Source: an uncultured SAR86 cluster bacterium (lineage in GTDB: Bacteria > Pseudomonadota > Gammaproteobacteria > Magnimaribacterales > D2472). From it: 64,000 nt of DNA. A program made the translations under genes and the position numbers. This document shows positions 34,254 to 44,860 of the stretch, piece after piece. Positions within the stretch are counted from its first letter, which is position 1; every line of letters begins with the position of its first letter. Under the pieces are notes generated by a model, which was not told where the DNA came from, made no database searches, and saw only the letters and a list, made by a program, of their open reading frames with translations. The stretch covers positions 124,001 through 188,000 of the forward strand of contig CACEAP010000002.1 in NCBI GenBank assembly GCA_902557645.1, given 5' to 3'.

Positions 34254-34775
34254 CTACTTAATTAGTTTATTTTTAACCTTATATAAGCTAGATACAAGAT
34301 AAATAATAAAGAAAATTAGTCCCCATTCAGCAAAATTAAATACAAACCTCCAACTTTCTTCAGCACAAGTTGGGCCGCCTTTATATGCATTTGCCAAGCC
34401 TCCAAAGAGACCAAAATATTCAATTTGTGTTTGCAAAGGCATATCGCAACCCATTGGCAGCATTGCTATTTCTTCAGGACTTAAATTTTGTAGATATATT
34501 AATTTTTGCGAAATAATAATGCCGTAAACTGCAGCAGCGGCAATTAATAACTTATTAACTATATCTAGTCTTTTTACAAGTAGATCTATTAATGAAATGA
34601 TTGCAATAACTCCAAAAATATATCTTGTTAATATACATAGAGGGCATGCTCTAAGATTTAGCACATTATCTAGCAAGATGGCTATAAGAATAATAGAAGT
34701 TGCACCAACAAAAGAAGCAATCTCGAAGTAGTTTGAGTATATATTTTTAATCAGTTTAATAATTTTCTTAAACAT
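34254..34775 (-). CDS. dsbB: Disulfide bond formation protein DsbB
   Basis: DsbB reoxidises DsbA and passes electrons to ubiquinone. The 173-residue, four-helix protein has the first periplasmic cysteine pair in ACPLCI. The second pair is in the long loop: GCDMPLQ, and PTCAEESWRF, which resembles the family's CxxxxW segment. It is divergent from polA across 75 bases. The partner dsbA is at 38843-39475. Confidence 0.93.
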   Translation of the reverse strand: MFKKIIKLIKNIYSNYFEIASFVGATSIILIAILLDNVLNLRACPLCILTRYIFGVIAIISLIDLLVKRLDIVNKLLIAAAAVYGIIISQKLIYLQNLSPEEIAMLPMGCDMPLQTQIEYFGLFGGLANAYKGGPTCAEESWRFVFNFAEWGLIFFIIYLVSSLYKVKNKLIK

Positions 34776-38199: not shown

Positions 38200-38850
38200 A
38201 TGTCTATAAGAATATTATTTGTAACAGTATTTATTTTTAGTATAAATGCTTTTACAGCTGAAAAAGAAATGCCTAGCACCTTCAAAGATGGTGATGCATC
38301 TAAAGGCTCAAACCTTATTGCATCTTGCGCTGCCTGTCATGGAGCAGATGGAAATAGTATAAGCTCAGATTGGCCAAAGCTCGCAGGTCAGAACCAAAGA
38401 TATTTATTGGAGCAACTGCAGTATTTTAAAAGTGGTGAGCGTGTGAATATTCTTATGTCGAGTGTTCTGCCAATTCTTAACTCTTATACAGACCAAGATC
38501 TTTTAGATATAGCAGCATTTTATTCATCGCAAATTCAGACTAATGGCCAAGCTGAAGATGATGCAGAATTACTAGCAGTTGGAGAAGCTTTATACCGAAG
38601 CGGAGATATGAAGAAGGCTATTCCTGCTTGCACTGCATGTCATTCAGTCAATGGTAAAGGGAATGAATTAGCTGGCTTCCCATCTGTTGCGGGCCAACAA
38701 AAAGCTTACTTAGTCTCAACATTAAAAGCATATAGATCTATGGAAAGAGATGCAGGTGATTATGCTTTAGTGATGCAGGCTGTTTCTCAAAACCTAAGCG
38801 ACTATGAAATAGAAGCTTTAGCAAACTATATGCATGGATTATATGAATAA
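38200..38850 (+). CDS. Diheme cytochrome c4-type protein
   Basis: This periplasmic electron carrier has two heme-binding motifs, CAACH and CTACH, each followed by the PKLAGQ or PSVAGQ pattern of the c4 fold. From ATG 38200 it has 216 residues beginning with signal peptide MSIRILFVTVFIFSINAFTA, and an AAGGA sequence stands 11 bases upstream. An in-frame ATG at 38164 would add 12 residues. It could donate electrons to the caa3-type oxidase. Its end overlaps dsbA in ATGAATAA. Confidence 0.92.
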   Translation: MSIRILFVTVFIFSINAFTAEKEMPSTFKDGDASKGSNLIASCAACHGADGNSISSDWPKLAGQNQRYLLEQLQYFKSGERVNILMSSVLPILNSYTDQDLLDIAAFYSSQIQTNGQAEDDAELLAVGEALYRSGDMKKAIPACTACHSVNGKGNELAGFPSVAGQQKAYLVSTLKAYRSMERDAGDYALVMQAVSQNLSDYEIEALANYMHGLYE

Positions 38851-39475
38851 AAATTATAAATACTTACTTCTTTGTGTCTTCGGATACACATTAATAGCCT
38901 TTTCTGCAAATTTACAAGCAGACTACAAGTTAGGCAAAGACTATCGTTTAATCGATGACCCATTGCCTGTAAGACAAGATGGAATGGTTGAGGTTACTTA
39001 TGCATTTTGGTATGGGTGTAATCATTGTTTTTCATTTGATTCTACAATTAACAATTGGAAGAGCTCTCAGCCTGATTATATTAAATTTGCAAAGATGCCA
39101 ATTACTTGGGGACAAATCCATCAATTGCATGCAGCTTTATACTACTCGATTGAAGCTTTGAAGTTAGATGCAGGTTCTCATACAGCAGTTTTTACAACTA
39201 TACATAGAGAAAATAATTTTCTTGCAAGTGAAAATGCCGTTGTTAAATTCTTAGCAAAATTAGGAGCTGATGAAGTGAAGTCTAAACAGTATTTAAACTC
39301 TTTTGCTATAAAGCAAAAAGTAAGTAGAGCTATTCAGGTGTCTCGACAGATTAAAATAACTAGCACACCAATGCTCATCGTTGATGGTAAATATATTATT
39401 GAATCTAAGCCAGACAGACAAGAAACTTTAAAAGTTCTTGATTATGTTGTTGAGTTACAAAAGACCAGTTCTTAA
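38843..39475 (+). CDS. dsbA: DsbA-type thiol:disulfide oxidoreductase
   Basis: DsbA introduces disulfides into periplasmic proteins. It has a signal peptide and a thioredoxin fold with active site CNHC in YGCNHCFSF (the usual form is CPHC), and the cis-Pro segment STPMLIVDGKY. The start is placed at ATG 38843, which overlaps the cytochrome stop in ATGAATAA; ATG 38834 would add three residues. DsbB at 34254-34775 is its probable oxidant. Confidence 0.92.
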   Translation: MNKNYKYLLLCVFGYTLIAFSANLQADYKLGKDYRLIDDPLPVRQDGMVEVTYAFWYGCNHCFSFDSTINNWKSSQPDYIKFAKMPITWGQIHQLHAALYYSIEALKLDAGSHTAVFTTIHRENNFLASENAVVKFLAKLGADEVKSKQYLNSFAIKQKVSRAIQVSRQIKITSTPMLIVDGKYIIESKPDRQETLKVLDYVVELQKTSS

Positions 39476-39489
39476 GAGGTTATTAATTA

Positions 39490-40077
39490 ATGAAACGAAA
39501 TATTTTATTCTTGATCTTGCCATTGTGTTTCTTATTTTTATTTAACGGCAAAAAATATGATGATGCTGTAATTGAAAGGATTCAGGTTCCTGTAAAGATA
39601 TGCCTTGAAGGTCAAGCCTGTGGACAAAGCACAACATCAACGCAAATGTCTTCAGCAAATACCACAGCAGTTAAAAAAGTTGAATTATCAGAAGGCTCTG
39701 AACATGTTGTTAAAATGTTAAATATGGGAGAAGGTGGTGCAATGATTTTTGAGCCAGCCGTCCTAAAAGTTTCAAAGGGTGACACAATTCATTTTAAAGC
39801 AACCGACCCCTCTCACAATGCCGAGACTTTACCAAGCATGATTCCTGATGGCGCGGAAGGTTGGATGGGAGCTTTGAATGAAGATATTTCAGTCACTATA
39901 GATACCGAAGGTGTTTTTGTTTACCAATGTAGTCCTCATGCAATGCTTGCAATGGTCGGAGTTATTCAGGTGGGCGAAGCTGTAAATCTTGATGCTGTTA
40001 AAGAGGCTGCTCAAAATATGAAGTCCACCTTCGTTAGCAATTCTGACAGATTAAATAATTATTTAGCGCAACTATAA
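39490..40077 (+). CDS. Pseudoazurin-like cupredoxin with N-terminal extension
   Basis: The C-terminal two thirds match pseudoazurin, a type 1 copper electron carrier: KMLNMGEGGAMIFEPA, ligand His in DPSHNAET, and Cys, His and Met ligands in YQCSPHAMLAMVG. The 195-residue protein is longer than usual. Between the membrane or signal segment and the copper domain lies DDAVIERIQVPVKICLEGQACG, which recalls the stretch before the heme domain of cytochrome c5-like proteins, plus a Ser/Thr-rich linker. It follows dsbA by 14 bases and is convergent with ubiK, with abutting stops. Confidence 0.87.
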   Translation: MKRNILFLILPLCFLFLFNGKKYDDAVIERIQVPVKICLEGQACGQSTTSTQMSSANTTAVKKVELSEGSEHVVKMLNMGEGGAMIFEPAVLKVSKGDTIHFKATDPSHNAETLPSMIPDGAEGWMGALNEDISVTIDTEGVFVYQCSPHAMLAMVGVIQVGEAVNLDAVKEAAQNMKSTFVSNSDRLNNYLAQL

Positions 40078-40305: not shown

Positions 40306-41000
40306 GTGCTCAACTCTTCTATTTTTTGATAATTATACCAATCTGAAAAAGTAGTTGGTTGGTTATAGTTTTGAGCCCACTCGGCAGCATCCTTATTAAA
40401 CCAGACTGCATGCATGCCTGCATTTAACGCTCCAGTTACGTCATTAATCTGATGATCTCCTACATGTATAACTTCTTGAGGGAGCAGCTTAGAGTTGCTT
40501 AGAGCTTTCTTAAAATGACCTTCCTCAGGTTTATTGCTTTTTACATCAGCAGAAGATATAGAAAAGTTAAAATATTTATCAATACCCAATCTCTTTATGT
40601 CAGCATTTCCATTTGTTAATACTCCAAGTTCATATTTTGTAGACAAAGCCTCTAAAGCATCAATTACTCCGTCATAAAACACAACTTCATGTCTTTTATT
40701 TAAGAAGAAATCAAATGCTTGGTTAACAAGATCTTCTAATTCTTTAGAATTAGAAATAATTGGACTCAGTTTAACTCTAAAAATCTCTCGTCGTAATTTT
40801 CCTAGATCCCAATTTAGAGATTGATCATTTTTAGCAAGTTGATTTCGTAATTCAAGGAATGATTGTAAAGTTCCCCATTCTATTTCTCCAACTTTTTCTT
40901 CTAACCACTTTCTTGTGGTCATTTCTGCATTAATGATTACAGGGCCAATATCCCAAAAAGTATCATCTAAATCAAAAGTTATTAATTGAACTTTGCTCAT
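40302..41000 (-). CDS. HAD-family phosphatase, YigB-like
   Basis: This 232-residue haloacid dehalogenase-type hydrolase has FDLDDTFWD (nucleophile Asp), VLTNGNAD (motif II) and VGDHQINDVTGALNAGM (motif IV). In E. coli the YigB orthologue dephosphorylates FMN and other substrates and also follows xerC. It overlaps xerC by four bases. Substrate here is inferred. Confidence 0.88.
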   Translation of the reverse strand: MSKVQLITFDLDDTFWDIGPVIINAEMTTRKWLEEKVGEIEWGTLQSFLELRNQLAKNDQSLNWDLGKLRREIFRVKLSPIISNSKELEDLVNQAFDFFLNKRHEVVFYDGVIDALEALSTKYELGVLTNGNADIKRLGIDKYFNFSISSADVKSNKPEEGHFKKALSNSKLLPQEVIHVGDHQINDVTGALNAGMHAVWFNKDAAEWAQNYNQPTTFSDWYNYQKIEELST

Positions 41001-41899
41001 ATTTTTTTTGCCTTAGGATGCGCTTCATCATATATCTTTACAAGATGTTGGTAATCTAATTTAGTATATATTTGAGTAGTTGATAAAGAACTATGCCCTA
41101 ATAGTTCCTGAATTGTTCTTAGATCACCTCCAGATTCAAGCATGTGAGTGGCAAAACTATGTCTTAACATATGAGGATAAACAGGCGGCAGGCCTTGTTT
41201 AAGCGCTAATCTTTTAAGCCTTAGCTGAATACTTCGCGTTGTAATTCTGCCACCTTTAAGATTAACAAAAAGCGCATCTGAAATTATATGAATTTTTTGT
41301 CTTTCTATAAGCCAATTTTGAATAGCTTGTTTTGCAAAACGACCAATAGGAACAAGTCGTGTTTTTGATCCTTTCCCAAGCACTCTTAAAAACTGCATAT
41401 CTTCTTCAAAATCATTAAGATTAACTGCAGAGGTTTCAGACACCCTAAGACCTGATGAATACATTAATTCAATTATTGCTAGGTCTCTTATTTCTAAATT
41501 ATTTGATGGCTTAAAGTTCATAAGAACCTCAACATCTTCAGGCGAAAGAACATCAGGCAAATGCTTTGCTGCTTTAGGTCCAGAAATTAGATCAAAAGGA
41601 GAAGATTCTATAATTTGATTTTTTAATAAAAATTTGAAAAATCCTTTAGCTGAAGATAAATGTCTCTGAATACTCTTTGGATTATTGTTTGCTGCAAAAA
41701 GATTGCCTATCCAGCTGGAACATACAGATTCTGTAGTTTCAGAATAAGAGGTAATACCAAGTTCTTGTAAATATTTCACTAGCTTGAGAAGATCTCTTTT
41801 ATATGACTCAACAGTATTAGAAGAAAGATTTCTAACCGAAGCTATGTATATTAAATAGGCCTCAAGATCAGTTTCTATGAAATAGCTTGAATTACTCAT
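40997..41899 (-). CDS. xerC: Tyrosine recombinase XerC
   Basis: XerC with XerD resolves chromosome dimers at dif. The 300-residue protein has an N-terminal core-binding domain and the catalytic residues Arg in SSGLRVSE, the HMLRHSFATHM His-Arg pair, the later His in LLGHSSLSTTQIY and the nucleophile Tyr in the same segment. The dapF-DUF484-xerC-yigB order matches E. coli and Pseudomonas, supporting XerC over XerD. Confidence 0.95.
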   Translation of the reverse strand: MSNSSYFIETDLEAYLIYIASVRNLSSNTVESYKRDLLKLVKYLQELGITSYSETTESVCSSWIGNLFAANNNPKSIQRHLSSAKGFFKFLLKNQIIESSPFDLISGPKAAKHLPDVLSPEDVEVLMNFKPSNNLEIRDLAIIELMYSSGLRVSETSAVNLNDFEEDMQFLRVLGKGSKTRLVPIGRFAKQAIQNWLIERQKIHIISDALFVNLKGGRITTRSIQLRLKRLALKQGLPPVYPHMLRHSFATHMLESGGDLRTIQELLGHSSLSTTQIYTKLDYQHLVKIYDEAHPKAKKI

Positions 41900-42527
41900 G
41901 TGAGGCTAGAGAAGACAGCCTTGTCTCAAGAACATCTCTTACATATTCAATAAATGTTGTATCTTCATCGCCTAGATATTTAGTTCTGTCTTTACTACCT
42001 AATTGCAAAAGGCCAATTTTTCCGCCATAAACTAGCACAGCAATTACTGCCGAACTAATTTCTTTGTCCTCAAAAAGGATAGACAATTTTGCTGAAGAAA
42101 AACTTCCACAATGCACAGCTCCCTTATGCAAAGATAGATCAGTCTTATCTTCAATTGCTGAGACCTCAGAATTATCAAAGAATTTTAGAGTGCATACATC
42201 AACACCAAAATTATCCTTAAATTCTTTTTCAATTCGATTGATTACGTCTTCTTCATCACTAGCTTCTTGTATAGATAGAGTTAAATTTTTTGATTTAATA
42301 AATAAATCCTCATTAACTTTAGCTTCCTCAACAAATGAAGTTAATAGCTCTATTAAAGTATTATGCTCTTCTCTTAGCCTTTTAATTTGTCTTTCCAATA
42401 ATGATGAGGCATTTCCAGAATCATGCTTAAAATTTAATTCAGTTAATAAGGCTTCTCTAGAAACAAAAAAATCAGGATTATCTAATAGGAATATTTCAAC
42501 ATCTTTGGCATCAATAGATTTACTCAT
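41892..42527 (-). CDS. DUF484 family protein
   Basis: This 211-residue protein has a helical or coiled-coil N-terminus (FLLDNPDFFVSREALLTEL, LLERQIKRLREEHN) and a GAF-like C-terminal domain ending near GKIGLLQLGSKDRTKYLGDED. DUF484 always seems to sit between dapF and xerC in gammaproteobacteria; its function is unknown. It overlaps both neighbours by eight bases in ATGAGTAA. Confidence 0.9.
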   Translation of the reverse strand: MSKSIDAKDVEIFLLDNPDFFVSREALLTELNFKHDSGNASSLLERQIKRLREEHNTLIELLTSFVEEAKVNEDLFIKSKNLTLSIQEASDEEDVINRIEKEFKDNFGVDVCTLKFFDNSEVSAIEDKTDLSLHKGAVHCGSFSSAKLSILFEDKEISSAVIAVLVYGGKIGLLQLGSKDRTKYLGDEDTTFIEYVRDVLETRLSSLASHE

Positions 42528-43299
42528 TTATAACTCCATCAAAATCTAATTTAGTAGGACCACGCATGATTAGTTTATCATTTGCATTGAAGAAGTTAAG
42601 AAAGCCTCCTTCAGAGTTAACTTTTAATGATTCCTTATTTTTAGTTTCAAGAAAGGCAATAGATGCTGCAGCAGAGCCACATGAAAGTGTTTTACCAACC
42701 CCATTTTCAAATGTAGACATCACAACCTCTTTGTTTTTAATTGTGTATATTGAAATATTCATTTGATAAGGCCTAACAAGAGCCCTTATTTCCTCATATA
42801 AATCATTCAAATTTAATTCATTTATATCTTTGACCTTTATACATAAATGAAGGTTACCAGAATCCACCATAAAAAAAGGCTGCTTAATAAAACTCTTTAA
42901 TGAGTCTTCAAGAGTTAAATCTTCATAGTAATTTGGTAAGTTTATAGATACTTCTATTAAGTTTTTTTCAGCTGGTTTCACAGCCGATACCTGATTTGTT
43001 GTTTCAATCATCATTTCTTTTCTAGGCGCTAAATTTTTCATCCAGATGTAATCGCTGGCACATCTTACTCCATTAAGGCACATAAGGGCTTCACCACCAT
43101 CTGCATTGTAGAATTTCACAAAAAAATCATTTTGATAAGTCTTTGGAGCTGAGATTAGTATCAATTGATCAAAACCAATACCCTTTTTTCTGCAGGCAAT
43201 TTTTTGAATAAAATCTTTTTTTAAATTAATAGCGGATTCAATAGAATTAATTATTACAAAATCGTTTCCATTGCCATTCATCTTTGAATAATTAATCAT
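42520..43299 (-). CDS. dapF: Diaminopimelate epimerase (divergent active-site motifs)
   Basis: DapF interconverts LL- and meso-diaminopimelate for peptidoglycan and lysine. The 259-residue protein keeps the N-terminal GNGNDF, NADGGEALMCLNGVRCA and the second catalytic Cys in TLSCGSAA. Motifs usually reading CGNG, ERGAGET and CGSGA are here CLNG, ENGVGKT and CGSAA, so both cysteines remain but the substrate-binding Arg is Asn. It is preceded by lptM (11-base gap), not lysA. Confidence 0.9.
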   Translation of the reverse strand: MINYSKMNGNGNDFVIINSIESAINLKKDFIQKIACRKKGIGFDQLILISAPKTYQNDFFVKFYNADGGEALMCLNGVRCASDYIWMKNLAPRKEMMIETTNQVSAVKPAEKNLIEVSINLPNYYEDLTLEDSLKSFIKQPFFMVDSGNLHLCIKVKDINELNLNDLYEEIRALVRPYQMNISIYTIKNKEVVMSTFENGVGKTLSCGSAAASIAFLETKNKESLKVNSEGGFLNFFNANDKLIMRGPTKLDFDGVINE

Positions 43300-43310
43300 G
43301 CAATTTTTTT

Positions 43311-43418
43311 CTACAAGCTTCCAAGAATGTTTAATAGATTAATAGGCCCTTTGACTCCACAAGCGCTAAGGACAATTAAAATAAAAAATATATTGACTAA
43401 GTTCTTAAATTTTTTCAT
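43311..43418 (-). CDS. lptM: LptM (YifL)-type small lipoprotein
   Basis: This 35-residue protein was found by reading the gap upstream of dapF. It has a basic start MKKFKN, a hydrophobic helix, lipobox LSAC and, directly after the lipid-bearing Cys20, GVKGPI, the CGxKGP hallmark of YifL/LptM. LptM helps the LptDE lipopolysaccharide translocon mature its disulfides in E. coli, where yifL also immediately precedes dapF. The start is ATG 43418 and the stop TAG 43311-43313. Confidence 0.88.
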   Translation of the reverse strand: MKKFKNLVNIFFILIVLSACGVKGPINLLNILGSL

Positions 43419-43465
43419 AGAGCTTATTATGATTAATAAACCCTATGATTGTAAGATGATAACTT

Positions 43466-44860
43466 TTAATATTTGTAGGTTTCTTCCTTAAATGGACCAT
43501 CTTTTGGCACATTAATATAGTCAGCTTGATTTTGAGTAAGTTGAGTCATCACTCCGCCAAAACCTGCAACCATTAGGGAAGCAACCTCTTCATCTAATTT
43601 TTTAGGAAGGATTTCCACACTTATCATCTCAGCCTTTGTTTCTTCATCATTAATATTTGCAAAACCTTGCTTATATAAGTGAATTTGAGCCAGAACCTGG
43701 TTGGCAAAAGAGCCATCCATAATTCTGCTAGGATGCCCTGTAGCATTTCCAAGATTAACCAGTCTTCCTTCAGCAAGTAAGATAATATAATTTTTACTAG
43801 TCAAGTCTGGTGTTTGTTCAGGAGTGGTATCTCTAAAGATTCTATGAACTTGCGGCTTAATTTCATCCCAATACCACTTATCTCTCATATAAGCAGTATC
43901 AATTTCGTTATCAAAATGGCCAATATTACAAACTACAGCAGTATTTTTTAAAGTGCTAAGCATCGCTGAGTCACAAACATTAACGTTCCCTGTTGTTGTT
44001 ACAATAAGATCAGTGTCTTGCATAACATTTAAATTAATATCCTCATCTTTCCTTGTAACTACGCCATCTTTATAACAAGAAACTACCTGAAATCCATCCA
44101 TACATGCTTGCATTGCACAGATAGGATCTGATTCAACTACACTTACAATCATTCCTTCTTGAGCTAAACTAGCAGCAGAGCCTTTTCCAACATCACCATA
44201 ACCAATAACTAGGCCTTTTTTACCAGAAAGAAGCATATCAGTACCTCTTTTTAAAGCATCATTAAGACTATGACGACAGCCATATTTATTATCATTTTTA
44301 GCTTTTGTGACAGCATCATTGACATTGATTGCAGGAATTTTTAACTCACCTTTTTGAAGCATCTCTTTTAATCTATGCACTCCAGTTGTGGTTTCTTCCG
44401 AAACGCCATGAATTTTATCAAGCATATCAGGAAATTTATCATGAACCATAGCTGTCAGATCACTACCATCATCTAATATCATATTTGCATCCCAGGGAGC
44501 ACCATCTTTACAAATGGTTTGTTCTATACACCATTCAAATTCTTCTTCAGTTTCACCTTTCCATGCAAAAGTTGGAACACCTCTTGCTGCCATTGCTGCT
44601 GCAGCATGATCTTGAGTTGAAAATATATTACATGATGACCATCTTAGCTCTGCGCCAAGATCAATTAATGTTTCCATTAAAACAGCTGTTTGAATAGTCA
44701 TATGGATACAGCCCATAATCTTAGCTCCAGCCAAAGGTTGTTCAGCCCGGTATTTTTCTCTTAAAGCCATTAAAGCTGGCATTTCATTCTCAGCAAGAGA
44801 AATTTCTCTTCTGCCGAATTCTGCAAGATTAATATCTGCTACTTTATAGTCATTTTCCAT
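43466..44860 (-). CDS. ahcY: Adenosylhomocysteinase
   Basis: AhcY hydrolyses S-adenosylhomocysteine to adenosine and homocysteine. The 464-residue protein has [15 protein letters not shown], the NAD loop [13 protein letters not shown] and the C-terminal [11 protein letters not shown]. It follows metK by 26 bases, pairing synthesis of S-adenosylmethionine with recycling of its by-product. This SAH route replaces the Pfs/LuxS route of enterobacteria. Confidence 0.97.

Follow-up and report, generated by a model that had tools for sequence, protein, structure and literature searches.

The lptM locus of the window

The closest described counterpart of the gene reported here is LptM (YifL) of E. 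coli. In E. coli K-12, lptM is found in the gene order cyaY, lptM, dapF, yigA (DUF484) and xerC, followed by yigB. In the excerpts of PMC10567701 considered here, deletion of lptM impairs LptD oxidation and makes DsbC essential, and the C-terminal moiety of the enterobacterial protein is poorly conserved outside Enterobacteriaceae. The corresponding excerpts of PMC12644819 state that only LptM residues 20-29 (ten mature residues) were buildable in the holo-complex, that LptM delta44-67 still co-purifies and that LptM delta22-30 strongly impairs association. In the sections of PMC12685063 drawn on here, LptM beyond Gln45 is resolved against LptE in one structure and only about 10 residues are resolved in another.

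The stretch of DNA analysed here (64 kb, hereafter the window) contains a comparable locus (Table 1). The minus strand of 43311-43418 translates to MKKFKNLVNIFFILIVLSACGVKGPINLLNILGSL followed by a stop (35 aa), and the plus strand across the same bases contains four stops. This frame is placed between ahcY and dapF, all three on the same strand, and 11 bases separate it from dapF; further downstream, past the DUF484 and tyrosine recombinase genes, lies a gene for a HAD-family protein. The frame shares with E. coli LptM (PDB 8h1r chain C, 9ia2 chain C) a signal peptide, the CGxKGP core and the order lptM-dapF-DUF484-xerC, but it has 16 mature residues versus 48 and bears neither the LYFPP segment nor the C-terminal half, the full-length C-terminal moiety of enterobacterial LptM being absent. 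The lipobox Cys is followed by Gly at +2 (LSA-CG), and lipidation is predicted. The window has a single short frame in which a signal-like stretch leads into [GASN]CGx[KR][GA]P, against 0.025 such frames per 64 kb in 40 first-order Markov windows.

Table 1. Features of the lptM region and dsb genes in the window
Feature	Position	Strand	Evidence or remark
dsbB match	34284..34718 (= G000:C2:158284-158718)	-	PF02600 E 3.6e-19
dsbA-like gene, CNHC motif	38834..39475	+	PF01323 E 1.8e-9
Tyrosine recombinase (xerC position)	40997..41899	-	PF00589 E 1.2e-45
DUF484 gene (yigA position)	41892..42527	-	PF04340 E 1.9e-35
dapF	42520..43299	-	TIGR00652 E 3.5e-50
lptM, 35 codons + stop	43311..43418	-	ORF; NF047847 and PF13627 both below curated cut-off
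Short hydrophobic tail INLLNILGSL	43314..43343	-	LYLP and the long C-terminal tail, known from other LptM, are absent
CGVKGP codons (lipobox Cys + core motif)	43344..43361	-	constrained within genera
Predicted signal peptide (19 residues) of a lipoprotein, with LSA just before the Cys	43362..43418	-	read from translation
CATAAT, -10-like box, 7 nt before ATG	43426..43431	-	matches TATAAT with one mismatch
ahcY (adenosylhomocysteinase), upstream of lptM	43466..44860	-	PF05221 E 2.8e-122

The frame scores 21.1 bits against PF13627 (cut-off 27.3; E 2.6e-4) and 22.4 bits against NF047847 (cut-off 27.7; E 9.5e-5). Since both cut-offs are annotation thresholds, a threshold-based annotation would miss the gene, and the remark in the preliminary description that it is easily missed is plausible. 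When the 22 SAR86 LptM sequences of one alignment were scanned, an LptM model was matched at E <= 1 by all 22 with NCBIfam and by 21 with Pfam, the best NF047847 match having E 9.8e-8. Conversely, the profile of this alignment retrieved E. coli LptM from the PDB (8h1r_C, E 6.7e-7; 9ia2_C, E 8.5e-7), with the next match at 0.048. Together with the E. coli synteny, these matches in both directions show that the window frame is an LptM ortholog, the identity first proposed for it.

It could also be a different small lipoprotein that shares with LptM only the lipobox and the position. Much of the match falls in the signal peptide, there is no LYLP segment and the scores are below the thresholds. 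However, the same locus recurs across the order, LptM is the sole model matched by nearly all the members scanned, and the sister families f3 and f183 supply intermediates: their LptM reads CGxKGPLxxP with 19-26 mature residues and is placed ahead of lysA in 11/11 loci read, as in most SAR86 f1 genomes. This alternative is very improbable.

Of the 83 family lptM genes, 74 have a TATAAT-like box with at most one mismatch 6-7 nt ahead of their start, where both the start and the distance were set so as to fit best; among 58 window ORFs used as control, 5 had such a box at a fixed 6-7 nt and 0-6 at other spacings. Of the 77 relatives in which a -10-like box was seen, 76 have 15-19 codons of predicted signal peptide before the Cys. 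The lptM transcript may start at the start codon, i.e. be leaderless. An inverted repeat, for example ATTATGGGC-N6-GCCCATAAT in locus L055, lies over the -10 box upstream of lptM in g7, in g9 and in some members of g8. RNAalifold on 14 hand-picked sequences gave 10 pairs, three of which had two-sided changes and were still paired, with a covariation term of only 0.02. The repeat is a candidate operator or hairpin.

Both dsbA and dsbB, pointed out as neighbours in the preliminary description, are present in the window (Table 1). A pseudoazurin match (39490-40077, plus strand, TIGR02375 E 4.5e-39) lies beside dsbA.

Conservation and length of LptM in the SAR86 family

A DapF alignment scanned against named genomes assigned the family (f1) to the SAR86 cluster; among named records, SAR86B FRAM18_bin308 matched best (55% identical in DapF). 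DapF was detected in 87 of 107 family genomes, and the sequence preceding dapF was extracted from each of these 87 loci (30 + 57). The suggested search of relatives for a CGxKGP peptide upstream of dapF was productive, as lptM precedes dapF, or lysA-dapF, in 84 of the 87 (83 in an automatic table, and G027 by eye plus profile; the counts of 83 given here exclude G027). The three misses are G102 and G067, where the contig ends, and G043, a 59% complete genome of genus g1 with no lptM between ahcY and dapF. In G043 (L136), an unrelated zinc-ribbon-like stretch occupies the expected site and dapF is split in two pieces; this oddity is probably an assembly error. The preliminary description had let its 35-residue gene ahead of dapF depend on conservation of the frame in close relatives. 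G041, G042 and G044, of the same genus and with unbroken dapF, all keep lptM with the same 16-residue mature part, and this conserved frame, with the open frame on the minus strand, confirms a real gene.

The gene is less than 400 bases from dapF in 15 of 83 genomes (g1 4/4, g8 10/28, g5 1/21). In the other 68 it is more than 1 kb away, with a decarboxylase frame in between, which was checked in one locus (L055, PF02784 E 8.4e-58) and which, by its position, we presume to be lysA. Among the 20 family genomes without DapF, ten make up genus g3 and the other ten are 55-80% complete, with a convincing LptM match only in G028 (E 1.3e-7). In the genomes searched for a second lptM, matches elsewhere all had poorer E-values than the gene linked to dapF.

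Within genera, the CGxKxP codons have pN 0 in g1, g5 and g6 and pN/pS of 0.015 in g8 and 0.021 in g9, with pS of 0.17-0.82, while the signal peptide and the tail are less constrained (pN/pS 0.40-0.76 and 0.12-0.68, respectively); these are uncorrected proportions from non-independent pairs of equal length. Between genera, the third mature residue is V, M, Y or L, and g5 has CGMKAP, i.e. KAP instead of KGP. Gly at +2 of the lipobox Cys is found in 83/83 relatives. Part of the invariance of the CGxKGP segment comes from the choice of rows, which were required to match C[GSA]x[KRNQ][GA]P, although 84 of 85 readable loci did so. These results showed that CGxKxP is under purifying selection.

The mature part has 16 residues in 4/4 g1 genes and 9-10 in 28/28 g8 genes, where it reads CGVKGP[LI]IF or nearly so; the range across the 83 family genes is 9-23. 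A class-wide sample was drawn from about 150 best-scoring listed matches, as the 30 highest-ranking loci plus 40 chosen chiefly because their open frames were short or of moderate length. In this sample, which is biased toward good matches, mature LptM has 18-47 residues (68 of 70 loci readable). These other gammaproteobacterial proteins (NF047847/PF13627) have in common with the SAR86 form the lipobox and the CGxKG core, but LY[LFIVM]P at mature residues 7-10 is common among them (58/68), whereas the LY motif occurs in 0/83 SAR86 f1 LptM. In addition, the P of their KGP is often D or A, and only 36 of 68 start with CGx[KR]GP. NF047847 is matched over its cut-off in 314 of 369 class genomes and at E <= 0.001 in 340 of 369, a level at which the non-proteobacterial controls B. 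subtilis and Deinobacterium match too.

Such a short frame could be a decaying lptM relic in a streamlined genome, since it is far shorter than LptM elsewhere, falls under the curated cut-offs, and belongs to a gene lost outright in g3. Yet the CGxKxP codons combine high synonymous with near-zero amino-acid change, and the mature length is steady in both g8 and g1. Motif constraint and steady length already contradict a relic, which is extremely improbable. Judged by its sequence, SAR86 LptM is instead a reduced variant of LptM and appears to be a natural minimum, and the g8 form with 9-10 mature residues is about the size of the published anchor of about ten resolved residues. Among the best matches of a broad literature search, nothing relevant was found on very short mature lipoproteins.

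LptM and the disulfides of LptD

A search for LptD in the window's own 87.5%-complete assembly found none, and relatives were used instead. LptD was detected in 84 of 107 family genomes and in 19/19 of those at least 90% complete. All 50 family loci read have the CC pair, 49 have C2 and 48 have C1, the remainder being gaps; the rows are the longest frame with an xCC motif, which all 50 and all 5 loci had, none being lost. DsbB gave a match in 92 of 107 family genomes and so did DsbC_N, the window genome having both. The family thus has what oxidative LptD maturation needs. A role of LptM as a stand-in for a missing DsbC was considered and rejected, as DsbC_N is there, also in the window genome. 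In SAR86 lptM carriers, the residue aligned with E275, the predicted partner of E. coli K23, is Asn, and an invariant Glu aligns two residues earlier, so the LptM-LptD contacts differ in detail. Among the best matches of a literature search, nothing on point was found on SAR86 with LptM or LptD, or on non-conserved LptD cysteines.

The presence of lptM had been proposed to argue that oxidative LptD maturation is under selection, and LptM may have been kept in SAR86 because a four-cysteine LptD needs it for this maturation. The cysteine and Dsb counts above agree with this explanation, as does the effect of the E. coli deletion on LptD oxidation and DsbC (PMC10567701, excerpts). A double dissociation stands against it.

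On one side, genus g3 has the cysteines without lptM. No lptM was found there by profile, the best matches (E 2e-4 to 0.03) lying in frames of at least 153 aa, with none in G008; the CGxK[GA]P DNA pattern and a dapF or DAP epimerase match are absent from 10/10 genomes. In 9/9 g3 loci, ahcY is directly followed by DUF484 and xerC-type genes (names checked in one, L209), which indicates that the lptM-(lysA)-dapF block is gone. The LptD tree, rooted on the long E. coli branch, places g3 inside the family, flanked by lptM carriers (support 0.83), and with this nesting the absence is most simply a loss. Nevertheless, four cysteines are present in 7/7 full-length g3 LptD proteins, and an eighth, a partial frame, has three. 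In g3 (L208-L216), lptM, dapF and, at the same site, lysA were lost together, which raises the question of peptidoglycan making.

On the other side, the sister family f3 has lptM without the CC pair. LptM was found in 8/8 f3 loci read, chosen from genomes already with an LptM match, as CGxKGPLxLP ahead of lysA. Both genes could be read in five f3 genomes, and in 5/5 of these LptD has YENPG, YENDG or YEDEG instead of the CC pair. The three f3 LptD with intact N-termini have no aligned C1, and G499 has one Cys at open-frame residue 6. In the LptD of L360, L362, L363 and L364, from which the CC pair is missing, a CPC motif was observed at the C2 position of the beta-taco.

These results showed that lptM is decoupled from the LptD cysteines within the order, in both directions. 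The presence of lptM is therefore weak evidence for oxidative LptD maturation, the selection argument of the preliminary description does not follow from it, and retention for the sake of LptD oxidation is unlikely.

The presence of lptM tracks that of LptD better than that of the LptD disulfides, g3 being the exception. In family f2 (G137, G550, G560), LptD gave no match in 3/3 genomes, of which two are 93% complete or more, and none of the three has a credible LptM: G137 gave no NF047847 match, and those of G550 and G560 reach only E 8e-4, cover profile positions 1-20 and lie in frames of 116 and 537 aa, respectively. Family f2 may thus be a sister family of SAR86 that lacks LPS export.

A possible role of the short LptM and the LptD changes of g3

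Taken together, these features make it likely that SAR86 LptM is a minimal form that acts as a lipidated anchor at the lateral gate of LptD, help with the disulfides being optional. If the E. coli structures are a guide, the acyl chains of the lipidated peptide would sit at the lateral gate and CGVKGP would lie against the inner wall of LptD strands 1-4. The peptide would keep LptD competent for assembly and transport and would ease opening of the lateral gate for LPS. In E. coli, according to the excerpts of PMC12644819, LPS crosslinking at LptD T236 drops by more than 90% without LptM. Where LptD has four cysteines, as in g1, the conformation held by LptM would also favour the native disulfides, which would be a consequence and not the reason for keeping LptM. 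This core job would not need the long enterobacterial C-terminal tail. Lipidation, LptD binding and gate function of the SAR86 protein are inferred from the E. coli work. Several points count against a minimal anchor: LptD was not found in the window's own assembly, the LptM-LptD contacts differ in detail from those of E. coli, g3 manages without any LptM, and the segment beyond Gln45 that contacts LptE in the excerpts of PMC12685063 cannot be copied by a peptide of 9-16 residues.

If a lipopeptide of 9-16 residues works as LptM, the unit would be small enough for a synthetic ligand directed at LptD, which is an antibiotic target. The decoupling from the LptD disulfides also separates the two proposed roles, disulfide helper and gate opener, which are hard to separate in E. 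coli, and a lineage without LptM and with an altered LptD offers concrete residues for compensation.

The LptD of g3 is changed at columns 154, 218, 227, 258, 275, 277, 340, 684 and 733 (E. coli numbering), which are otherwise invariant (97% or more in all other genera). In region 212-280, which joins the published hydrogen-exchange peptide 212-240 and the published strands 1-4 contacts, g3 has 5 of 23 such columns changed, versus 5 of 149 when the nine other genera are taken together (Fisher P 0.0045), and outside it 4 of 55 versus 22 of 413 (P 0.37); one fragment row (G043) was left out. Within g3 alone, inside versus outside 212-280 gave Fisher P 0.08, which is not significant. Six choices of region were compared for g3 versus the other genera: 212-280, 205-300, 212-285 and 225-285 gave P <= 0.02, and the other two, 212-240 and 230-280, missed P 0.05 (0.08 and 0.07). 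As the region was fixed post hoc, after the list of changed columns was known, the narrower choices lose significance and there is a single loss event, the excess in g3 is a lead.

The discussion of PMC12644819, in the excerpt considered here, asks whether lacking LptM is offset by compensatory mutations. A tentative and rather doubtful extension is that the lipidated nonapeptide CGVKGP[LI]IF would be a complete LptM, with a gate role independent of the LptD disulfides, and that g3 would have compensated in the vacated LptM pocket. If true, this would answer that question.
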